IMG/VR virus record: IMGVR_UViG_3300034102_002172
Span: 1 to 38,828 of that record
From: a virus
Length of the DNA: 38,828 nt
Direction: 5' to 3' (one strand)
Positions 10 to 21,143 of this stretch are shown one piece after another. The notes beneath the pieces were generated by a model. It did no database searches. It had not been told where the DNA came from and saw nothing but the letters and a program-made list of their open reading frames with translations. The stretch's first letter is position 1. The number at the start of each line of letters is the position of its first letter. The translations under genes and the position numbers were made by a program.

Positions 10-961
10 CGCCCGGCTCGCCTGTCCGCTTCAAGGGGGTGGGGGTGTTGGCACGCGCAGCATCGGCCTGCCGCATGCGGTAAGCGATGGTCTGCTTGGT
101 GGTCCCGAGTGCGACCGCGATGCGCTGGAGCGTCCAGCCCTCGTCCCGGCGCGCGATGAGCCACTCATCGTCCAGCTTGGCCGACTTCGGACGGCCTGAC
201 GACTTCGGCACCTTGCCTGCCGCGTTGGCCTCCCGCAGCGTCTGCGCTCGCTTGGCGTTAGTCCGCGCACGGCACAGGGCCTCAACCTCGTCCAAGGGCT
301 TCACGGCCGCGATGGCAGCCACGACCTCTGGACGCTTCAGGACCTCGCCGACCCAGTGCTCGGAGTGCGTGACGTGCATCGATATCTCAGCCGTGTTCAT
401 GCCTTGGAGCCTAAGGTCAACCACCTGCTGAACCGTCCGACTAAGCGGCATCGGCTCGGCTGACAGGCTACGCCGTACGATGGCCATCAGCTGCTCTTGC
501 ACTATGGTCCGACCGGGCCGCGCAGTGTACTCCTCAGCCTCGACGAACCGATCCCGACCCTTCCGCGCACGCTTCCGGATGAGGTCGTCCGCGCACGCGG
601 GCGGGTCGTAGTACACGCCCAGCGCCTGCGCTTCTAGCACCACCTCGTCTAGGCCCTCAAGCGCGCCAGGGACGCGATTGGCGACGTCGGTATAGGTCTC
701 GGCCAACTGCCACAGGGCTTGAAGCGCTGCCTCATGCCGAGGCTTAGCACTGGCCCAATCGGCCAGCTTGTGCCCGACTAGGCCTTCAGTCATTGAGCAC
801 GGCACGCCGAGCTCGGCCAGCTGACGAAAGATGCGCCGAACTGGCGCGCCCTTGGACTGGATGAGACGCAGCATCTCACGCCCGACCCCGCGGTTGCGGA
901 GCCACGTGGTCGACCGCTCCTGCTCGCGCTCCCGGCGCAGTATCTTGACTCCGCCTTGCAT
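1..961 (-). CDS. Helix-turn-helix protein, N-terminal 320 codons (gene continues across the window end)
   Basis: The frame opens at ATG 961-959, overlapping the SSB stop as TGATG, and stays open to base 1. If the ends are joined it continues at 38828 or 38819 and stops at TGA 38778-38776, giving about 334 aa. Two DNA-binding-like segments are visible. One is a central stretch around LSRTVQQVVDLRLQGMNTAE. The other is a C-terminal helix-turn-helix with WTLQRIAVALGTTKQTIAYR. The protein is rich in Arg and Lys. Its place between SSB and the small terminase would suit a late-gene regulator or a packaging accessory, but that is inference. I do not recognise a family. That the gene is real is well supported by about 960 open bases, the coupled start and the coupled stop. 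Confidence 0.8.
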   Translation of the reverse strand, partial: MQGGVKILRREREQERSTTWLRNRGVGREMLRLIQSKGAPVRRIFRQLAELGVPCSMTEGLVGHKLADWASAKPRHEAALQALWQLAETYTDVANRVPGALEGLDEVVLEAQALGVYYDPPACADDLIRKRARKGRDRFVEAEEYTARPGRTIVQEQLMAIVRRSLSAEPMPLSRTVQQVVDLRLQGMNTAEISMHVTHSEHWVGEVLKRPEVVAAIAAVKPLDEVEALCRARTNAKRAQTLREANAAGKVPKSSGRPKSAKLDDEWLIARRDEGWTLQRIAVALGTTKQTIAYRMRQADAARANTPTPLKRTGEPGGLP

Positions 962-1335
962 CAGAAGGGCATCTCCCCGCCGCCGCCGCCCGCTGGCATC
1001 TCGCCGCGCTCGGAAGGCATCTTGGCAAGGAACCGGACGTCAGAGGCCACGACCTCAGTGCGCTGGCGCTCGGTGCCATCCTGACCCTGCCACTTGCGTG
1101 TCTTCATTCGCCCGTCGACTAGCACCGGGTCGCCCTTCCGGCAGCGCTCGGCCATAAGCTCCGCAGTGCGGCCGAAGGCCACGATGTAGTGCCACTCCGT
1201 GACGTCAACCCACGCGTCGCCCTGCTTCTCGCGCTCATTGGTGGCCAGTGACACCGAGACCACCGCTCCGCCCGCCTGCGTCCGCTTCAGCTCAGGGTCG
1301 CGGCCTAGCCGCCCCATCAGTATCGCCTTGTTCAT
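961..1335 (-). CDS. ssb: Single-stranded DNA-binding protein
   Basis: The product is a 124-aa OB-fold protein that coats single-stranded DNA during replication and recombination. It starts with the classic SSB N-terminus MNKAILMGRLGRDPELK and continues with the core segments VSVSLATNE, DWVDVTEWH-type and VDGRMKTRKWQ. The tail is glycine-rich and ends GEMPF, a variant of the acidic DDDIPF tip that recruits partner proteins. The start overlaps the preceding stop (ATGA) and the stop overlaps the next start (TGATG), so it is translationally coupled on both sides. It sits in the replication arm with PrimPol-helicase and VRR-NUC, and probably also serves the RecT/exonuclease pathway encoded on the other strand. 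Confidence 0.95.
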   Translation of the reverse strand: MNKAILMGRLGRDPELKRTQAGGAVVSVSLATNEREKQGDAWVDVTEWHYIVAFGRTAELMAERCRKGDPVLVDGRMKTRKWQGQDGTERQRTEVVASDVRFLAKMPSERGEMPAGGGGGEMPF

Positions 1336-1529
1336 GCCTCTGTCTCCCCTTCAATCTCTTCCAACCATTTTGGCCCGTAGGCCTTCACGAGGTCCCGGAC
1401 CACGTCCGCCAGCGTGATGTCGACGCCTTGCCCCTGTAGTGCCCTCTGTAGCGCTTCGACGGTGGCTAGGTGCTCTCCCCATAGCCCCAAGGTCATCGCG
1501 CGAGGGCTAGGCCCCTTCCACGGCGTCAT
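1332..1529 (-). CDS. Small protein of unknown function between VRR-NUC and SSB
   Basis: The product is 65 aa. The start at 1529 is chosen because GGAGG lies just upstream and its ATG overlaps the VRR-NUC stop (ATGA); a longer frame to 1613 would lie inside the nuclease gene. The stop overlaps the SSB start as ATGA. The sequence is amphipathic, with helix-forming stretches around HLATVEALQRALQ and LADVVRDLVKAYG and an acidic end. No family is recognised. The tight coupling suggests a small replication accessory, which is inference only. Confidence 0.7.
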   Translation of the reverse strand: MTPWKGPSPRAMTLGLWGEHLATVEALQRALQGQGVDITLADVVRDLVKAYGPKWLEEIEGETEA

Positions 1530-1873
1530 AGCGCCTCCAACTTTGCGATGGCCTCGTCTGCTCCGTAGGCGACGAACGCGTACCAGCCGCGATCGCGAAG
1601 GGCTTCGATCCACCGCGCCTGCTCAATCGATACCTTACCTCGGGCTGTCTTTAGCTCGATGGCCACGCCACGGTAGCCCGCGACCGCCTCGAAGACCAGC
1701 AAATCCGGAACGCCTGGAGCAACTCCCGACCGCGCGAGCTGGACCCACTGCATCCGGCCTGCTCCGACCCCGTTAGCCGTCGCCGAGAACAGCCAGCCCC
1801 GTCCGCGTAGGTAAGCGACCACCTTCGCCTGCTCGGTCGCCTCTGATGTGGGCATGTGGGGCATGTGGGTCAT
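1526..1873 (-). CDS. VRR-NUC domain nuclease
   Basis: The product is a 115-aa stand-alone VRR-NUC protein of the PD-(D/E)XK superfamily, which in phages acts on branched or replication-intermediate DNA. Visible motifs are an early EATEQ (residues 11-15), GVPDLLVF with the metal-binding Asp at 57, AIELK with Glu73 and Lys75, and a following Gln near 85. The length is typical for phage stand-alone members. The N-terminal MTHMPHMP is encoded inside the CATGTGGG iteron array, so any of three in-frame ATGs (1873, 1864, 1855) could be the start; 1873 has a weak AAGG upstream. The gene lies directly downstream of the candidate origin. Confidence 0.85.
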   Translation of the reverse strand: MTHMPHMPTSEATEQAKVVAYLRGRGWLFSATANGVGAGRMQWVQLARSGVAPGVPDLLVFEAVAGYRGVAIELKTARGKVSIEQARWIEALRDRGWYAFVAYGADEAIAKLEAL

Positions 1874-2080
1874 GTGGGCCTTGTGGGTCGTGTGGGTGCA
1901 TGTGGGCGTGTGGTGGAGTAGCCAAGCCGCCTATATATATACATATACATACATTAGATATTTAGAGAGAGAGAGACCCACATGACCCACATAGGGTGCT
2001 CAACCCCGCCTTGCAGGCGCCCCAAGTCATGTGGGTCTCCGCCGATTCGTGACCCACACGAGACCCACATGGCCCACATG
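1845..2080. other. Candidate replication origin: CATGTGGG iterons flanking an AT-rich tract
   Basis: The left cluster has perfect CATGTGGG at 1853, 1862, 1871 and 1899. Near copies lie at 1845, 1880 and 1889, mostly at 9-bp spacing. An AT-only-like tract (tatatatatacatatacat and following) covers about 1931-1963. On the right are inverted copies CCCACATG at 1977, 2064 and 2073, near copies at 1986 and 2053, and a direct copy at 2028. Tandem iterons beside an AT-rich melting region and next to the primase/helicase gene are the usual build of an iteron origin. A regulatory operator is the main alternative. Confidence 0.65.
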
Positions 2081-2083
2081 GCC

Positions 2084-4483
2084 TCAGTCTCTCCGCCGGA
2101 CGTAGAACGCGGCTGACCCGTTGTGGTTTGCGCACTTGTACCGGCCGCGCAGCCACTTGCCGAACTGCTTGACGTCTGCCGTGGTCCAGCTCTTGTCCGG
2201 TCGCATCGCGTCGCGGATGACCCCGAAGCGCGTCGCGCGCTCGACACTGTCGGTCTCCGGTCCGGGCGGGTGATAGCACTCGAAGAACAGGTCTTCCCAC
2301 GGGCTGATGTCCCGGAACCGCTCAAGCAAGCGTTCGGCATCTTGCCTTGACGCATCGTCGAGCCAGTGCCGCTCTCCGCGCCTACCTAGCGCTATGGCCT
2401 GCGCCCAGACCTGCTGATACGCCGAAGGGTCAAGGCTTCGACACTGGCCGACAGGCATGACCCAGAAGCGACGGTTGCCGGTGTCATCGGCCAGGAACTG
2501 CGACGGGTTGACCGTAGCCGCAAAGATGGTCCGCCGAGGGTAGGTCTCGGAGCGCTTGGCGTAGGGACTTCGGTAGATGTCTTTGTCGCGCGTCAGGAAA
2601 GCCTTTAGGGCCGCGATGTCGCTCTTGCGGTAGGTAGCATCCAGTTCGCCTAGCTCTGCGATGAACGTCGACGTAGCTAGGATGACGCTGTCCTTGTCCG
2701 CCGGGTCGAGGATGACGCCTTCGGCAATCCAGTTCGGGTTCGGTCCGAGCAGCGCCTTCACCCAACGTGTCTTCCCCGTCCCTTGTGGCCCCTGAAGGAC
2801 AAGGACGCCTTCGGCCGCTACGCCGTGGTCGCCGACGAGCATCTTCCCGCCAGCGATAAGCCATCGCAACAGCTGCTCATGCAGTAATGCCCCGTGCTCA
2901 GCCATCAGGTCCGGGCTGATACCTAGGGTGTGAAGCAGCATTGAAACGCGGTCCTCGCCATCCCAGGGCGTGCCTGTCGCCCACTCCGCGACCGGGTGGT
3001 AGGCGTGCTTGACTTCGATCTTGTCTAGGTACGCCTGAAGGTGCTGCGTCCGCGTAAACCCGAACCGCTGACCTGCATCGATGATGTTCGCCAGCATGAC
3101 CGCGTTCATGGCTGACGTCGGAATGGTCTTCGTCAGCTCGCCGCCCCACTCGGTTGAGTGGTTCATCAGGTTGCGCCTCAGGGTGACGCCCATGAACTCG
3201 AGCAGCGCCTCGACGTTCTCCGAGACGTTCTCAGGCTTCCCGTCCCGGTCCGTCAGCGCCCATTTGAGCCCCTTGGCCTTAGCCTTGCGCGCCGGCTGTA
3301 CCGCCGTCGCTCCGATGACCTCGAGACCGTCGTCGTCGTCGTCCTCAGGCGGCTCGGGCCTAACCACGGACAGCTTGCCCTTGGCGCGTCCAATGTGGCT
3401 CAGGTCGCGCGGACTGCGTGCGCCGCCTTCGACCATCTCGGCGACCGTCCGCAGCTCGTCCCGCTGACGGCCTGCGGGAAACACCGCCTCAACCGTCCGC
3501 GTCAACGTCTGGATGACCTCGCCAACGTCGAGGAACCCCGGCTGGCAGTAGCCGCCCAAGTTGTAGGCCACCCTGATGAGCTGGTCGTGCCGAGTGCCTT
3601 CGACCGCGCTCAGAACGTCCTGACAGCCGCCCGCGAGCGCTCGGAGGGCATACGCCCGCGTCGCTGCCCTAGACGTCGGGATATCGGCCATGACCGACCG
3701 CGCGGCCTTCTCGACGTCCTTCCGTGCCGCGTCCTTGCGCTGCTGGTCTCGAGCTCGCCACCCATCACCGTCGAGCAGCTCGGCCGGTGTCTCGACAATG
3801 GCCCGCCCTGGCAAGCGTCCGAGCCTGACGCCCGCGAGCGGGTCCGCTATCCCCTCGAAGACAGGGTCGGCCGTGTAGTGAGGCTGGACGCACTTGCTAA
3901 AGCTGATGTCGAACCCGTGCGACTTGCAGTACTCGCGTAGGCTCAGGTCGTGCACGCGCCGGTCAAGCCAGAACCACAGGTGCATGGACACGTTGGCCCA
4001 GCCGTTCAGCCCTGCCGACGACGACAGCTTGTAGACGCAAGCGGCCTTCGCAAACGCAGGCGGCATGACCTCCGCCCTGACCTGATAGACGATAGCCCGC
4101 GCCTGCTCCTCGGTAGGCACCTCGCCCGCGAACGCGTCCTGCGCCACCTTGTCGAGGTCGAAGGCCACCCACTGCCGGCCTAGCGCGTGATGGTCCCAGT
4201 CGGGCCGCGTGCCGTCGCTTCCGACGTGCTGGCGTCGGTTGACGATGGACTGCATCCCGACGTGTCCCATCGGCTCGCCTCGGATGACGCAGGACTTCGG
4301 GTCGCCACGCAGCTGCTCGAGCATCAGCTGGATGTCGTCGAGCCCGCCGACGGTCACCTGCCGCCAAGCAAACGTCCGCGCGTCGTCGAAGCCCTTGACC
4401 TCGAGGCCGGTCGCCGTCCGCGTGATGAGCTTGGCCAGCCTGACGTTGTCGTGACACCGGAGCACTGTGATGTTGTCGGTCAT
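2084..4483 (-). CDS. Primase-polymerase/helicase replication protein (AEP PrimPol plus VirE/D5-like ATPase)
   Basis: The product is a 799-aa fusion expected to prime and unwind the phage genome. The N-terminal third looks like an archaeo-eukaryotic primase: WVAFDLDKV (105-113) supplies the D-x-D metal pair, and SSSAG (about 154-158) with SMHLWFWLD around His168 supplies the second and third motifs. The C-terminal part is a VirE/D5-type P-loop ATPase with GPQGTGKT (565-572), FIAELGELD as Walker B and ATVNPSQFLADDTGNRRFW with its sensor and arginine residues. A GGAGC element precedes the start, which overlaps the GIY-YIG stop (ATGA). The stop borders the candidate origin. No separate DNA polymerase gene is seen in the window, so host polymerase is probably recruited. 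Confidence 0.88.
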   Translation of the reverse strand: MTDNITVLRCHDNVRLAKLITRTATGLEVKGFDDARTFAWRQVTVGGLDDIQLMLEQLRGDPKSCVIRGEPMGHVGMQSIVNRRQHVGSDGTRPDWDHHALGRQWVAFDLDKVAQDAFAGEVPTEEQARAIVYQVRAEVMPPAFAKAACVYKLSSSAGLNGWANVSMHLWFWLDRRVHDLSLREYCKSHGFDISFSKCVQPHYTADPVFEGIADPLAGVRLGRLPGRAIVETPAELLDGDGWRARDQQRKDAARKDVEKAARSVMADIPTSRAATRAYALRALAGGCQDVLSAVEGTRHDQLIRVAYNLGGYCQPGFLDVGEVIQTLTRTVEAVFPAGRQRDELRTVAEMVEGGARSPRDLSHIGRAKGKLSVVRPEPPEDDDDDGLEVIGATAVQPARKAKAKGLKWALTDRDGKPENVSENVEALLEFMGVTLRRNLMNHSTEWGGELTKTIPTSAMNAVMLANIIDAGQRFGFTRTQHLQAYLDKIEVKHAYHPVAEWATGTPWDGEDRVSMLLHTLGISPDLMAEHGALLHEQLLRWLIAGGKMLVGDHGVAAEGVLVLQGPQGTGKTRWVKALLGPNPNWIAEGVILDPADKDSVILATSTFIAELGELDATYRKSDIAALKAFLTRDKDIYRSPYAKRSETYPRRTIFAATVNPSQFLADDTGNRRFWVMPVGQCRSLDPSAYQQVWAQAIALGRRGERHWLDDASRQDAERLLERFRDISPWEDLFFECYHPPGPETDSVERATRFGVIRDAMRPDKSWTTADVKQFGKWLRGRYKCANHNGSAAFYVRRRD

Positions 4484-4875: not shown

Positions 4876-6410
4876 GTCACCACCTTCCGCGTGAACGTGA
4901 CCCCGGGCAACTGCTCCAGGCACGCCTTCCGCCGCGACCGCCACTGCGACTGGAGCAGCGACATGTTGTCGACGTAGTCGTAGACGACCGGCCGGGCCTT
5001 GCCCGAGCTGGCACGCATGACGCGCCCAATGCGCTGGATAACCCGGTTGCCCGCCCTGCAAGGCGCGACGAGGTGAACGGCGACGAGCTCGGGAAGGTCA
5101 AGGCCCTCGTCGGCGAGCTGGGTCGCAATCAAGACCTTCGCCTCTCCGGCCCTCACACGCGCGAACGCCGCGTCCCGGTCGCGCGTCCGACCTACGACCG
5201 CCACCGCGTCAGGGATGAGCCCTGCAAGGGCCTCAGCGTGCTCCACGCGCGACGTCAAGACCAGCTGCGGGAACGTCCCGTGCTCGGCGACCAGCCGCGC
5301 GATAAGCGCGTTCCTGTCGCCACTATCTGTCAGGTCATTGACGATAGTCGTGAAATCGCCGGACCACGAATGGAACGGCGTCACGACCTCGCAGACCGTC
5401 GGCGCCATCGTCAGCCCGACACGCTGAAGGTCCCGCGCCTGCACCTCGTACCGCTTCGGGCCGAGCCACGCATACATCGCAGGCGTCCAGCCGTCGTCCC
5501 GGTTAGGCGTAGCGGTCAGGCCGTACACGGTATCGCAGACGATGTTGCCGAGCACGGCTTGGAACGTCGACGCCGGCGCGTGGTGCGCCTCGTCGAGGAT
5601 AACCGTCCCAAAGCGCATGCCCGCGAGGTCCCACGGGTCGACCTTGGCCAGCGTCTGGACCGTCGTGATGACCATGCCCTTGACGTTAATCATGGCAGCC
5701 GTTGCGGACTTCACAAACGCGGCCGCGCCGCTCGCGCTGACAGGCGCCATGCCGAGCAACCGCCGCACCCGCTGGTCCCACTGCGTCGCTAGGTCGCGCG
5801 TGTGAACGAGCACCAGCGTAGGGCGCTCCGTCATCGCGAACCGGTGCAGGGCCACGCCCATCTGCGTCTTGCCCGCGCCGCAGGGCGCGACGATAACGCC
5901 AGACCGCCACTTGCCGGCGGCCTTCACCGCTGCCTTCTGGTGGTCCATTAGCCATTCGCAGTCGTTGACCGCGCGTTCATATGCTGGGGGATGGGGGGAA
6001 GGGATCCCGGAACCGGGCTGCTTTCCCACCCTGGTTTCCACCATCCCCCCACATGCTGGGGGATGGGGGGAAGGGATCCCGGAACCGGGCTGCTTTCCCA
6101 CCCTGGTTTCCACCATCCCCCCACATGCTGGGGGATGGGGGGAAGGGATCCCGGAACCGGGCTGCTTTCCCACCCTGGTTTCCACCATCCCCCCACAGTC
6201 GGTTCGCTGGGCTGACCACGCCGCGCCCATCGGCACGACGACGCCTTGCCCCTGACGCTGCCAAAGGTGGACCATCGGCTCGACGTGGCCCGCCCATCGG
6301 ATGATGCCCGCCCGCTTCAGCTTGTCTTGCTTATCCGCCGCCGGGTTCGGGAAGCTAAGCATCGGCTCAAGCTCCCAGAACCTCGACTGATTCACCGCTT
6401 CCCAGCTCAT
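4872..6410 (-). CDS. Superfamily II DEAD/DEAH helicase with a triplicated 24-residue insert
   Basis: The product is a 512-aa DNA helicase or translocase of the RecG/UvsW/Rad25-like SF2 type. The core carries APCGAGKT (175-182), LVLVHTRDLATQWD, ILDEAHH (DEAH 273-276), YGLTATPNR (motif III), LIATQLADEGLDLPE (motif V) and QRIGRVMR (motif VI). Residues 72-143 are three exact copies of a 24-aa unit beginning CGGMVETRVGKQ and ending PHPPA, placed between a short N-terminal domain and the helicase core. The start has GGGAGG upstream. The reading frame survives because the unit is 72 bp. Removing the insert would leave a normal-looking helicase, so the insert is probably a tolerated surface loop. Confidence 0.88.
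   Translation of the reverse strand: MSWEAVNQSRFWELEPMLSFPNPAADKQDKLKRAGIIRWAGHVEPMVHLWQRQGQGVVVPMGAAWSAQRTDCGGMVETRVGKQPGSGIPSPHPPACGGMVETRVGKQPGSGIPSPHPPACGGMVETRVGKQPGSGIPSPHPPAYERAVNDCEWLMDHQKAAVKAAGKWRSGVIVAPCGAGKTQMGVALHRFAMTERPTLVLVHTRDLATQWDQRVRRLLGMAPVSASGAAAFVKSATAAMINVKGMVITTVQTLAKVDPWDLAGMRFGTVILDEAHHAPASTFQAVLGNIVCDTVYGLTATPNRDDGWTPAMYAWLGPKRYEVQARDLQRVGLTMAPTVCEVVTPFHSWSGDFTTIVNDLTDSGDRNALIARLVAEHGTFPQLVLTSRVEHAEALAGLIPDAVAVVGRTRDRDAAFARVRAGEAKVLIATQLADEGLDLPELVAVHLVAPCRAGNRVIQRIGRVMRASSGKARPVVYDYVDNMSLLQSQWRSRRKACLEQLPGVTFTRKVVT
5981..6196. repeat. Three perfect 72-bp tandem repeats within the helicase gene
   Basis: Copies start at 5981, 6053 and 6125 and are identical base for base. 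Each unit is itself structured. GGGGGATGG near one end pairs with CCATCCCCC near the other (9 bp), and the centre holds CCCGG-AA-CCGGG, so one unit can fold into a long hairpin. The unit length is a multiple of 3, so all frames through it stay open. It resembles a palindromic repetitive element expanded in frame. An assembly or slippage artefact cannot be excluded. Confidence 0.95.
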
Positions 6411-6411
6411 G

Positions 6412-6540
6412 CGTGACCTCCCTGAGATAAAGAAGGCTCGCCCCTCCGCTGCCCAGGGAAAAGCAGACCGAAGGGACGAGCCTGACGCCGGCTAACGAGC
6501 AACAACCCGCCGGCGAGGCGCGGGTGCCGTTAGCCCGCGC
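6412..6540 (-). promoter_or_regulatory. Structured leader with two hairpins upstream of the helicase gene
   Basis: In the minus-strand transcript, the first hairpin pairs GGCTAACG with CGTTAGCC (6528-6535 with 6490-6497) and nests an inner ACCCGC/GCGGGT stem. It contains the stop codon of the winged-helix gene. The second pairs GGCTCGTCCC with GGGGCGAGCC (10 bp with one U-G pair) and nests CTGC/GCAG. The GGGAGG ribosome binding site follows shortly after. No run of U follows either stem, so an attenuator, processing site or protein-binding leader is more likely than a simple terminator. Confidence 0.5.
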
Positions 6541-9017: not shown

Positions 9018-9886
9018 GCGCTATAACCGCAACCGTCGTCGCAGACACGACATGGGAAGACCGCCGGCTCTTGACCATCGTCTGCGATTACCCACGCTTC
9101 ATCCACCCGCAGGTCATGAGCTACGGGATGTTGCGCAAGTCGACGTCGTCGAGCCGGGCTATACCCGTCAAGCGTCAGCTCGAGCTATCCCAGGACGAGC
9201 CATTCATCCCGGCAGCCTTGACGAAGAATCAGCCGGGCATGGGTGCCGAGGCTCGGCTTTCGCCCGAGGAACAGGAGGAAGCGGCTAGCATCATCCGCAG
9301 CCTTTACGACTTGACCCGGCACCGCGTGCACCTGCTCGAGCTGCTTGGCGTCCATAAGCAGCACGCCAACCGCTACCTTGAGCCGTGGTTGATGACGCGC
9401 TGCACCATTACCGGCGCCGTCGAGGCATGGCAACACCTGCTAGCCCAGCGCGCCGGTCCGTCTGCGCACGTGGAGGTCCAGCCCGAAATGTTTGAACTGG
9501 CCTGCCGCGTTCGCGACGCCATGATTGCAAGCCAGCCCGTCGAGCGCCAGTGGCACGTGCCTTACTGCCAAGACCGCGAGCCGACGTATCAAGACGTCCT
9601 GTATGCCATCGCACGCGCCGCCCGCGACAGCTACCGCCGCGACGACGTCAGCCCTGACTTTATGGGCCGGCTCGAGAAGCTAGCCGCTGAAGGTCACCTC
9701 GGGCCGTTTGAGCACGTCGCGTGGTACGACACAGACGCGCCCGGCTTGGCCGTCGGTCCCTACGTCTTGCCGTCCGCCTGTGACGGCGACGACCTAGCCG
9801 ACGAGATGCTCTTGAACGGCTGGCGCTCGGCTCGCCACCTTGGCCTTGACGTGGTGCGCCAGCTGCTATGGGAGGACGGACGATGA
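9014..9886 (+). CDS. thyX: Flavin-dependent thymidylate synthase
   Basis: The product is a 290-aa ThyX, which makes dTMP from dUMP with FAD, NADPH and methylene-tetrahydrofolate and so supplies thymidine for phage DNA. Signatures are RKSTSSSRAIPVKR (a form of the SASSRAIP stretch), GVHKQHANRYLEPW (the phage version of the ThyX motif region), EAWQHLLAQRAGPSAHVEVQ with the conserved Arg and acidic residues, and GPFEHVAWYDT near the C-terminus. The length is normal. The ATG at 9014 overlaps the upstream stop and follows GGAGGGAAGG. It is placed directly before the exonuclease, which starts inside its stop codon. Confidence 0.92.
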   Translation: MSAITATVVADTTWEDRRLLTIVCDYPRFIHPQVMSYGMLRKSTSSSRAIPVKRQLELSQDEPFIPAALTKNQPGMGAEARLSPEEQEEAASIIRSLYDLTRHRVHLLELLGVHKQHANRYLEPWLMTRCTITGAVEAWQHLLAQRAGPSAHVEVQPEMFELACRVRDAMIASQPVERQWHVPYCQDREPTYQDVLYAIARAARDSYRRDDVSPDFMGRLEKLAAEGHLGPFEHVAWYDTDAPGLAVGPYVLPSACDGDDLADEMLLNGWRSARHLGLDVVRQLLWEDGR

Positions 9887-18353: not shown

Positions 18354-21143
18354 TCAGATGATAGTGACTTTGACGAGGTTGCCGTCAAGGAACGGAGCGC
18401 CGCAGAACAGGCCGGCCTCGCTGACGCATGTGACGTTCGCTAGCCCGGTCACGGTGCCGCCGACCTCAAAGAGCTCGTAGACACCATCGGTCGCGTAAAG
18501 CTCGCCGTCAAGATAGAGCGTCGTCGCGCCGCTGAAGGTCAAGTCGCCGTCGACGAACTGCTTGCCGTTGGTCGGATTGCTCTTCAACTTGGCGACGACG
18601 TGCGACTTGTGCGGTTTGTCCTGGACAACCTCAACGAATGAAAGCGCAAGGTCAGACGCGTCGACTGTCAGGTATGCGTCAAGGTCCGCCTGCCCGCCAG
18701 GGAAGCTGCCATACTGAAACAGCACGTAGTTTCCGCCGATTGGGTACACGCTCTCGTCAAGGTAGACAGTCGTCGCGCCGGTGAAGTCAAGCGCCCCGTC
18801 GACGTACTGCGCGCCCTCGTAGCTGTCGCCCATGAGCGACCACGACCACGAGCCGCCAGCGAGCTGCATGTCGGGCCCGGCCCAGCTGGCCGCGACAAGC
18901 GTCGTGATAGTGAATGTGCCAGCGTCAAGGGCCATGTCCGGGCCGGTCCACGATGCCGAGTCGCGCGCGCTGAACGTGCCCGCGTCAAGCTGCATGTTCG
19001 GACCGGTCCAGCCAGCCGCTTCGTCCGCCGTAAACGTGCCGCCGTCGAGCTGCATGTCCGGGCCCTGCCACGCGACGACGCGCTGCGCCGTGAACGTGCC
19101 GCCGTCAAGCTGCATGTCGGGCCCGACGTAGTCCGCAGATTCGGTTGCCGACCACGTACCGCCAGCGAGGGCGAGGTCCGGGCCGATGTAGTCAGCCGAC
19201 TCCGACGCGCCAAAGGTCCCGCCGTCAAGCGCCACGTCCGGGCCCGACCACGTGGCCACGTAGGCCGCGCTGAACGTGCCCGCATCAAGGGCCATGTCCG
19301 GGCCTTCCCAGTAGACGCCGAGGCGCGTGGCAAAGGTGCCGCCGTCAAGCGCGATGTCTGGCCCTTCCCACGTGCCGACCTCGTTGGCCGTGAACGTGCC
19401 GGCGTCAAGCGCAAGCTCGGGGCCGCTCCAGAGCTGCACCTCGCGGGCGTCAAACGTCCCGCCGTCAAGCGCCATGTCCGGCCCGACGTAGTCCGCCAGC
19501 TCGAGCGCGCTGAACGTGCCGCCGTCAAGGGCAACGTCGGGTCCGATGTAATCCGCCGACGCTGACGCCGTGAACGTTCCGCCGTCAAGTGCGAGGTCCG
19601 GGCCCTGCCAGTAAACGCCGACGCGCGCGACGAACGTCCCGCCGTCAAGCGCCATGTCGGGGCCAACGTAGTCCGCGAGTTCGAGCGCCGTGAACGTGCC
19701 CGCGTTGAGGTCCATCGCAGCGCCCGGCCAGTCGACGTCTTCGTTGGCCGTGAAGTAGCCCGGGTCAAGGTCGAGCGCTGGGCCGATGTAGTCGACGCTC
19801 GCAAGCGCCGTGAACGTCCCGCCGTCAAGTGCGAGGTCCGGACCGGACCAGATGCCGACCTCCTGCGCCGCGAACGTGCCTGCATCGAGGGCCATGTCGG
19901 GGCCAGCGTAGTCGGCGAAGCCAGCCGCCGCGAACGTGCCAGCGTCCAGCGCCATGTCGGGGCCCTGCCACGCAGCTTGCTCTTGACCGGACCACGTGCC
20001 GCCGTCGAGCGCGAAGTCTGGCCCGACGTAGTCCGCCGACTCGAGAGCCGTCCAGGTACCGCCGTCAATCGCGATGTCAGGCCCGACCCACCGGAACTCG
20101 CCCGATGCGGTGAACGTGCCAGCGTCAAGGTTGACCTCGGGCCCAGCGTAGTCCACGACCGCCAGCGCCGTGACGCTGCCAGCGTCAAGCGCCACGTCGG
20201 GCCCGACGTAGTCCGCCGACTCAAACGCTGCCCATGCGCCCGCATCAAGGGCCATGTCCGGGCCCTGCCAATAGGCTGTCTCGGCTCCCTGCCATTCGCC
20301 CGGGTCAAGCGACATGTCCGAGCCGGCGTAGTCGGCGACGCCGATGGCCGTGAAGTCGCCCGCGTATGCCAGCAGCTCCGGGCCTTCCCACCGCGCAATC
20401 TCGGTCACGCTGTAGGTGCCGCCGTCAAGGTCGAGCGCCGGGCCAGCGTAGTCTACAGCGCCCGAGGCTGCGAACGTCCCGCCGTCAAAGGCCACGTCGG
20501 GCCCAATCCAGGAGGCACTTTCAAACGCGGTGAACGTCCCGCCGTCAAGGGCCATGTCCGGGCCCTGCCAGAGCGCTGCCTCTGAGGCGAACCACGTGCC
20601 ACCGTCAAGCGCGAGCTCGGGCCCGATGTAGCTGACAGCCGCCAGCGCCGTGAAGGCCCCGCCCTCGAGCGCCAGCGATGGCCCTTCCCACGATGCCTCT
20701 TCGTTCACTGACCACGCGCCAGGCTCGAGCTGCATCTCGGGGCCGGTGTAGCTCACAGCCCCGCTGACGGTGAACGTGCCGCCGTCTAGCGCCACGTCTG
20801 GCCCGAGGTAGTCCGCCTGCGTGATGGCCTCAAAGGTGCCGCCGTCAAGCGCCATCTCCGGGCCGGTGTAGCTGACGGTCGCGAACGCGCTGAACGTGCC
20901 AGCGTCGAGCGTCAGTTCCGCTCCGGTGTAGTCCGCCGACATGGCCGCGCTAAAGCTGCCGCCGTCGAGGTCAAGCGCCGGGCCTTCCCATGACGCTTCC
21001 TCGTTGACAGACCACGTCCCGCCAGCGAGCAGCATGGCAGGGCCAATCCAGTCCACGAAGACGGGAGGCTTTGGACGCCTGCCGCCTTGGCTGTAGTACT
21101 GCTGCCAGTGCTCTTGATAGAGCTTGCGTGGCTGCGTCGGCAT
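18354..21143 (-). CDS. Giant repeat protein of about 37 twenty-residue units, probable tail surface protein
   Basis: The product is 929 aa. After about 31 residues (MPTQPRKLYQEHWQQYYSQ start), residues 32 to about 768 are successive 20-residue units starting with Trp or Tyr and centred on GPDMALDGGTF. All but one keep the 20-residue period (one has 22). Two similar C-terminal modules follow, each with DGxLxFxGATTxYLD. The strict period, alternating small and hydrophobic residues and Asp-Gly turns suggest a beta-solenoid or stacked sheet. Placed between tail-tip genes and the adhesin, it is probably a long tail-fibre shaft or virion surface protein. I do not recognise the repeat family. Confidence 0.7.
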   Translation of the reverse strand: MPTQPRKLYQEHWQQYYSQGGRRPKPPVFVDWIGPAMLLAGGTWSVNEEASWEGPALDLDGGSFSAAMSADYTGAELTLDAGTFSAFATVSYTGPEMALDGGTFEAITQADYLGPDVALDGGTFTVSGAVSYTGPEMQLEPGAWSVNEEASWEGPSLALEGGAFTALAAVSYIGPELALDGGTWFASEAALWQGPDMALDGGTFTAFESASWIGPDVAFDGGTFAASGAVDYAGPALDLDGGTYSVTEIARWEGPELLAYAGDFTAIGVADYAGSDMSLDPGEWQGAETAYWQGPDMALDAGAWAAFESADYVGPDVALDAGSVTALAVVDYAGPEVNLDAGTFTASGEFRWVGPDIAIDGGTWTALESADYVGPDFALDGGTWSGQEQAAWQGPDMALDAGTFAAAGFADYAGPDMALDAGTFAAQEVGIWSGPDLALDGGTFTALASVDYIGPALDLDPGYFTANEDVDWPGAAMDLNAGTFTALELADYVGPDMALDGGTFVARVGVYWQGPDLALDGGTFTASASADYIGPDVALDGGTFSALELADYVGPDMALDGGTFDAREVQLWSGPELALDAGTFTANEVGTWEGPDIALDGGTFATRLGVYWEGPDMALDAGTFSAAYVATWSGPDVALDGGTFGASESADYIGPDLALAGGTWSATESADYVGPDMQLDGGTFTAQRVVAWQGPDMQLDGGTFTADEAAGWTGPNMQLDAGTFSARDSASWTGPDMALDAGTFTITTLVAASWAGPDMQLAGGSWSWSLMGDSYEGAQYVDGALDFTGATTVYLDESVYPIGGNYVLFQYGSFPGGQADLDAYLTVDASDLALSFVEVVQDKPHKSHVVAKLKSNPTNGKQFVDGDLTFSGATTLYLDGELYATDGVYELFEVGGTVTGLANVTCVSEAGLFCGAPFLDGNLVKVTII
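18840..21050. repeat. About 37 degenerate 60-bp coding repeats
   Basis: The 60-bp period encodes the 20-residue units of the 929-aa protein. Units share wording such as the codons for GPDMALDGGTF but differ enough at many positions that this is an old, diversified array rather than a recent expansion. Adjacent copies are not identical, in contrast to the perfect 72-bp repeats in the helicase gene. Confidence 0.9.

Follow-up and report, generated by a model that had tools for sequence, protein, structure and literature searches.

A probable iteron origin of the P4/PICI type beside a primase-helicase gene in a full-size phage

Introduction

The P4 alpha protein binds the repeats of its ori through a winged helix (PMC4234260), and the origins of PICIs, which directly follow the 3' end of the initiator (rep) gene, are made up of two iteron sets around an AT-rich region (PMC6092414). 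For one of these elements, EcCICFT073 from E. coli, others have shown that plasmid maintenance required both the ori and the gene. The stretch of DNA analysed here (hereafter, the window) spans the full 38,828 bp of an IMG/VR virus record, for which an original prediction, made from the sequence alone, had proposed an iteron origin at 1845-2080, between the gene of a 799-aa PrimPol-helicase and a VRR-NUC gene. For most uncultured phages, to our knowledge, no replication origin is known. The idea of an iteron origin beside the initiator gene is now supported by the density and location of the repeats, the AT-rich tract, the homology of the neighbouring helicase to PriRep1, the joint exchange of helicase half and repeat motif among relatives and the geometry shared with P4 ori1. 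Since the array has every sequence-level feature of a P4/PICI-type origin, it can be placed in that known kind, and we infer that it is very probably the replication origin of this phage. New here are its occurrence in a full-size phage, the iteron sequence, and the evidence from exchange and spacing.

The iteron array and its genomic context

Both ends of the window (positions 1 and 38828) bear GGGGCAAGC; they can be joined, and the junction aligns unbroken to a relative (L007). Although classed as linear, the record therefore probably represents the complete genome in circularly permuted form. With its own large terminase, portal and (probable) tape-measure protein genes, the 38.8-kb genome that hosts the array is a full-size phage and not a satellite. 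Searching the window for Rfam families and tRNAs gave no matches. The features around the array are the following:

961-1335, minus strand: SSB gene (Pfam SSB, E 7.4e-33), belonging to the same replication module
1526-1873, minus strand: VRR-NUC nuclease gene (Pfam VRR_NUC, E 4.7e-9), whose 5' end overlaps the array
1786-2801, no strand: block near-identical to the relative L004, comprising the C-terminal part of the helicase and the array
1845-1914, plus strand: far-side opposed set, with copies at 1845, 1853, 1862, 1871, 1880, 1889 and 1899, plus a weaker one at 1907
1932-1976, no strand: AT-rich tract (22% GC), probable unwinding element
1977-1993, minus strand: iteron pair (1986-1993 and 1977-1984); the scan with the P4 template peaks at 1984-1986
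2028-2035, plus strand: single inverted iteron, an exact CATGTGGG
2053-2080, minus strand: iteron triple, in gene direction 2073-2080, 2064-2071 and 2053-2060
2084-3270, minus strand: helicase and probable winged-helix half of the initiator gene, apparently exchanged with the array (identity to the relative L005 drops at ~3270)
2084-4483, minus strand: initiator gene of 799 aa, with a primase-like N-terminal half (~1-400) and a C-terminal half of VapE-type helicase plus probable winged helix (Pfam, PHROG and structure match)

The claimed array at 1845-2080 contains 13 sites of the CATGTGGG type (at most one mismatch), that is, 53/kb versus 0.86/kb elsewhere, so the repeats, far from being equally common along the genome, are strongly concentrated in it. 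The window has 12 exact copies of CATGTGGG, eight of them within 1853-2080, against a mean of 1.03 and a maximum of 4 in shuffles. The copies originally listed at 1853, 1862, 1871 and 1899 (plus strand) and at 1977, 2064 and 2073 (minus strand) are correctly positioned, and to them must be added an exact copy at 2028 (plus) and near copies at 1845, 1880 and 1889 (plus) and at 1986 and 2053 (minus), which had been overlooked. Four CATGTGGG copies lie outside the array, two of which are created by a 72-bp coding repeat. This unit, in three perfect tandem copies at 5981-6197, belongs to the N-terminal part of a DEAD/ResIII helicase ORF, and its 24-nt core is present once in L004 and absent from L005 and L007. 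Other repeats of the window, of 60 bp (18910-19754), lie inside a 929-aa ORF (18354-21143) that probably encodes a repetitive structural protein.

Reading in gene direction, the array begins 3 bp past the stop codon of the 799-aa gene, directly 3' of it, with three tandem iterons (2080-2053), followed by one inverted (2028-2035), a pair (1993-1977), the AT-rich tract (1976-1932) and about seven opposed copies (1914-1845). Thus, two opposed iteron sets flank the AT-rich tract, with a 3-1-2 arrangement on the gene side and about seven copies on the VRR-NUC side. The tract, announced from the sequence at about 1931-1963, is indeed present and is placed here at 1932-1976, being the lowest-GC 45 bp of the window (22%, the next lowest having 36%). 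As single-stranded DNA the array folds much more strongly than its shuffles (z -5.8).

Two other expectations fared less well. The array was said to supply the start codons of the VRR-NUC gene: the longest ORF of the window does start within it, at 1873, and that of L005 in the last repeat, but the L007 gene starts (with GTG) outside, so that a start inside the array is not a general feature. A change of GC skew, on the other hand, was not found at the array, the detrended extremes being at 6454 and 23801; skew is not decisive in this case because it is weak in the window and its extremes do not mark the array.

The initiator protein and its helicase half

The 799-aa protein matches the Pfam VapE-like family PF05272 on residues 506-722 (E 2.8e-46). 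A profile built from 27 relatives matched one solved protein, 7pds (E 1.2e-46), which is described as "similar to D. nodosus vapE" and whose title names PriRep1 with dsDNA. The same structure is the best match of the model of the helicase half (pLDDT 85.8), with Z 27.6 over 383 residues, NrS-1 (Z 14.0) and the SaPI5 primase-helicase (Z 11.8) scoring lower. The C-terminal half is therefore homologous, by sequence and structure, to the SaPI-type self-loading helicase PriRep1. The end of the model (347-396 of the helicase half, within the 1-399 over which 7pds was aligned) has a helix-helix-strand-strand order that is winged-helix-like, at a moderate pLDDT of ~60-76.

The N-terminal half matches a PHROG DNA primase family on residues 1-223 (E 1.7e-16), yet no Pfam or NCBIfam model, which makes it a likely, though not proven, PrimPol. 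The motif FDLDK (108-112), H168 and D206 would suit AEP motifs, judged by eye alone. The structure model of this half (pLDDT 40), derived from only three near-identical sequences, was left unused. The iterons are probably recognised by the helicase and the putative winged helix of the C-terminal half, and not by the PrimPol half.

Exchange of helicase half and iterons among relatives

The array of the window is shared by the relative L004, whose overall identity is 94%, with one difference in 238 bp where the average divergence is 5.6%. The near-identity extends over 1786-2801, where there are four differences, versus ~6% around it, and this block has probably been exchanged recently as one piece. 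Purifying selection was considered as the cause of this identity and found less likely than recent exchange, because the block also spans ~700 bp of helicase coding sequence.

Relatives that keep the genes and lack the array would refute the proposed origin. Instead, L005 and L007 have arrays of other sequences, together with other helicase halves. L005 shares with the window 95% identity over the primase half and 96% over the VRR-NUC gene, but its identity falls from ~85-97% to ~40-67% between ~3270 and ~1845 of the window, a region where the helicase half differs and the array motif is CCATGACGC in place of CATGTGGG. In L007 the motif is AGTGGCCC, with a helicase 78% and a VRR-NUC gene 90% identical to those of the window. 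Moreover, at 2211-4809 of L007 the place of the fused primase half is taken by a Toprim protein with a gene of its own, and the 422-aa helicase likewise has a separate gene; the type of primase and the helicase are exchanged independently. Across these genomes, the comparison indicates that the repeat motif tracks the helicase half, and neither the primase half nor the nuclease, as one would expect of repeats that are read by the helicase half. One breakpoint of the exchange falls inside the primase-helicase gene, and the array sits at one as well.

Arrays in other loci

In a non-redundant set of 45 relatives (<85% mutual identity), in which the copies of any 8-mer were counted per 300 bp, the most 8-mer-rich 300 bp of the locus starts just past the helicase gene in 18 cases, where 3.9 were expected. 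The motif differs from locus to locus, for example GTTGGTCAC (L019), TATGACCAA (L015), GTTCACC (L090) or AGTGCA (L111, Acinetobacter phage Alexa), and many of the arrays, when aligned side by side, have a common spacing despite their differing sequences. Several relatives, such as FoX3, ep3, Mica and Mano, have no array beside the helicase at the sensitivity of this survey, and in some others the array is 2 kb off or upstream of the gene. The latter is the case of Vibrio phage 1.009.O (L112) and Shewanella phage SFCi1 (L113), whose 3-1-2-spaced arrays precede the initiator gene, in the gap that separates it from a divergent gene. Pseudomonas phage Persinger (L108) and Enterobacter phage Arya (L116) have GGTGGTCA and GGTGACCA arrays, respectively, with at least 11 sites, ~2.1 kb downstream of the primase gene, at a place where their records carry no origin annotation.

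Bordetella phage BPP-1 (L117) has, at 1120-1225, ~450-560 bp 3' of its primase gene, two tandem GTTTGCCTC copies followed by an AT-rich stretch and then the same in inverted form, a small iteron-like candidate origin unlike the stem-loop proposed for BIP-1; it shows no fit to the P4 template (best score 29, as in its shuffles). In another locus (L161), the gene after the array, behind the helicase, reads like a VRR-NUC protein, for which reason helicase, origin and VRR-NUC may form an old neighbourhood. When L089 was used as a query among viral contigs, no relatives were found.

A common spacing

The common spacing was first noticed in the relatives; the annotation of P4 was fetched afterwards and then used as the sole template. 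The P4 record lists type 1 ori repeats at 9310, 9320 and 9331 (minus), 9353 (plus), and 9396 and 9406 (minus), that is, at offsets of -86, -76, -65, -43 (inverted), 0 and +10, and the corresponding offsets in the window are -87, -78, -67, -42 (inverted), 0 and +9. All six positions therefore agree within 3 bp (shuffle P 0.009). Taken together, the arrays of 26 loci beat controls in which the gaps and strands had been shuffled (Fisher P 3.6e-10, with related loci treated as independent), with individual P values of 0.002-0.009 for the window, L005, L007, L019, L036, L089, L111, L112 and L113, and about half of the loci tested have an array that does not suit the 3-1-2 template.

The spacing can also be searched for without any motif. 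In such a scan the array of the window scores 39 out of 40, the best position elsewhere in the window reaching 30 and shuffled windows at most 32. P4 ori1 scores 40, EcCICFT073 has scores of 35 and 34 directly 3' of its primase gene, and the plasmid pPSEST02 reaches 34, a score attained by none of 147 shuffled loci. Within 700 bp of the gene, 10 of 61 relatives (<80% mutual identity) score at least 34, a threshold that, like the others, was chosen after the shuffles had been inspected, with related loci being partly non-independent. Sixty decoy templates found a mean of 0.9 loci at that score and a maximum of nine, versus ten for the true template. As the top decoy (nine loci) is a register variant, namely the 3-1-2 order with its two long gaps exchanged, the support from the scan is for a tandem-inverted-tandem order with these distances, and not for each exact position. 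A high template score in L011 was due to a coding repeat, which was discarded as an origin.

Alternative explanations and proposed mechanism

Could the array be something other than a row of iterons at an origin? The protein might recognise a large hairpin formed from two opposed arms, as suggested by the strong folding and by pRN1 and BIP-1, which have the same probable order of primase, helicase and winged helix and for which a stem-loop has been placed 3' of the gene (PMC4234260). Nevertheless, opposed iteron sets yield a hairpin automatically, and a hairpin needs neither 9-bp tandem repeats within an arm nor the 3-1-2 spacing, both of which are kept as motifs change, so this reading is very unlikely. 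The overlap with the VRR-NUC start in the window and L005 would rather suit an operator array, at which a repressor or the initiator regulates the transcription of VRR-NUC and SSB while the origin lies elsewhere. The motif, however, changes with the helicase half and not with the VRR-NUC gene (almost unchanged in L005), the AT-rich tract and the P4 ori geometry would be left unexplained, and in L112 and L113 the arrays are upstream of the helicase gene, away from a VRR-NUC start; an operator instead of an origin is thus highly improbable, and regulation may be a side role of the array.

Finally, its position at one breakpoint of the cassette exchange might point to a recombination or packaging site, or to a functionless, drifting tandem repeat. 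A drifting repeat would not hold its spacing while the motif changes, the terminase genes are ~3 kb off around the circle, and the single difference from L004 also speaks against these options, whose probability is practically negligible.

If the array is the origin, as preferred here, the CATGTGGG iterons of both opposed sets would be bound by the putative winged helix at the C-terminus of the 799-aa protein, two helicase rings would form flanking the AT-rich tract and then melt it, and the N-terminal primase half would lay the first primers, after which SSB and a host or phage polymerase would take over.

In a broader sense, it seems likely that VapE/P4-alpha initiators have in common an origin layout that does not depend on the motif (a tandem trio, a single inverted site ~22 bp further, a tandem pair ~43 bp beyond it, an AT-rich tract and opposed sites), extending from satellites and plasmids to full-size phages, in which the helicase half and the iterons constitute an exchangeable cassette and origins could be paired with their initiators by layout alone. 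In a limited literature search, the layout was nowhere described as a general rule. If the rule is true, the origins of phages, satellites and plasmids could be found without knowing the repeat sequence, each paired with its cognate helicase, and the natural swap of helicase half and iterons, with the primase half nearly unchanged, is a ready-made test of the domain that reads the repeats.

Comparison with known systems

The closest geometry is that of P4 ori1, with near-identical 3-1-2 offsets and AT-rich DNA after the pair, and P4 alpha, as the protein of the window probably does, combines initiator, helicase and primase. Unlike in the window, ori1 is ~4.7 kb from the alpha gene, a second repeat region (crr) is separate, the repeats are GGTGAACA and alpha has a Toprim-type primase half (PMC4234260). 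The pRN1 protein ORF904 and those of BIP-1/BPP-1 share with the window a primase-like N-terminus, an SF3-type helicase, a C-terminal winged helix (predicted in the window) and an essential region 3' of the gene; for pRN1 and the Bordetella phage BIP-1, however, a stem-loop was proposed instead of iterons (PMC4234260). The pRN1 type implies an essential hairpin without iterons, and the window has the hairpin potential but also the iterons. In SCCmec, Cch2 is a D5/VapE-like helicase as well, and its C-terminal domain binds direct repeats just downstream (PMC7581432), but these are only three 5-nt iterons (AAGTG) and the primase is separate. The origins of PICIs and SaPIs resemble the window in lying directly 3' of the initiator gene, with two iteron sets that flank an AT-rich region (PMC6092414), and the helicase half of the window is homologous to PriRep1 of 7pds, one of their Rep or Pri-Rep proteins; they differ in the iteron sequence and in belonging to satellites, whereas the array described here is carried by a 38.8-kb phage.
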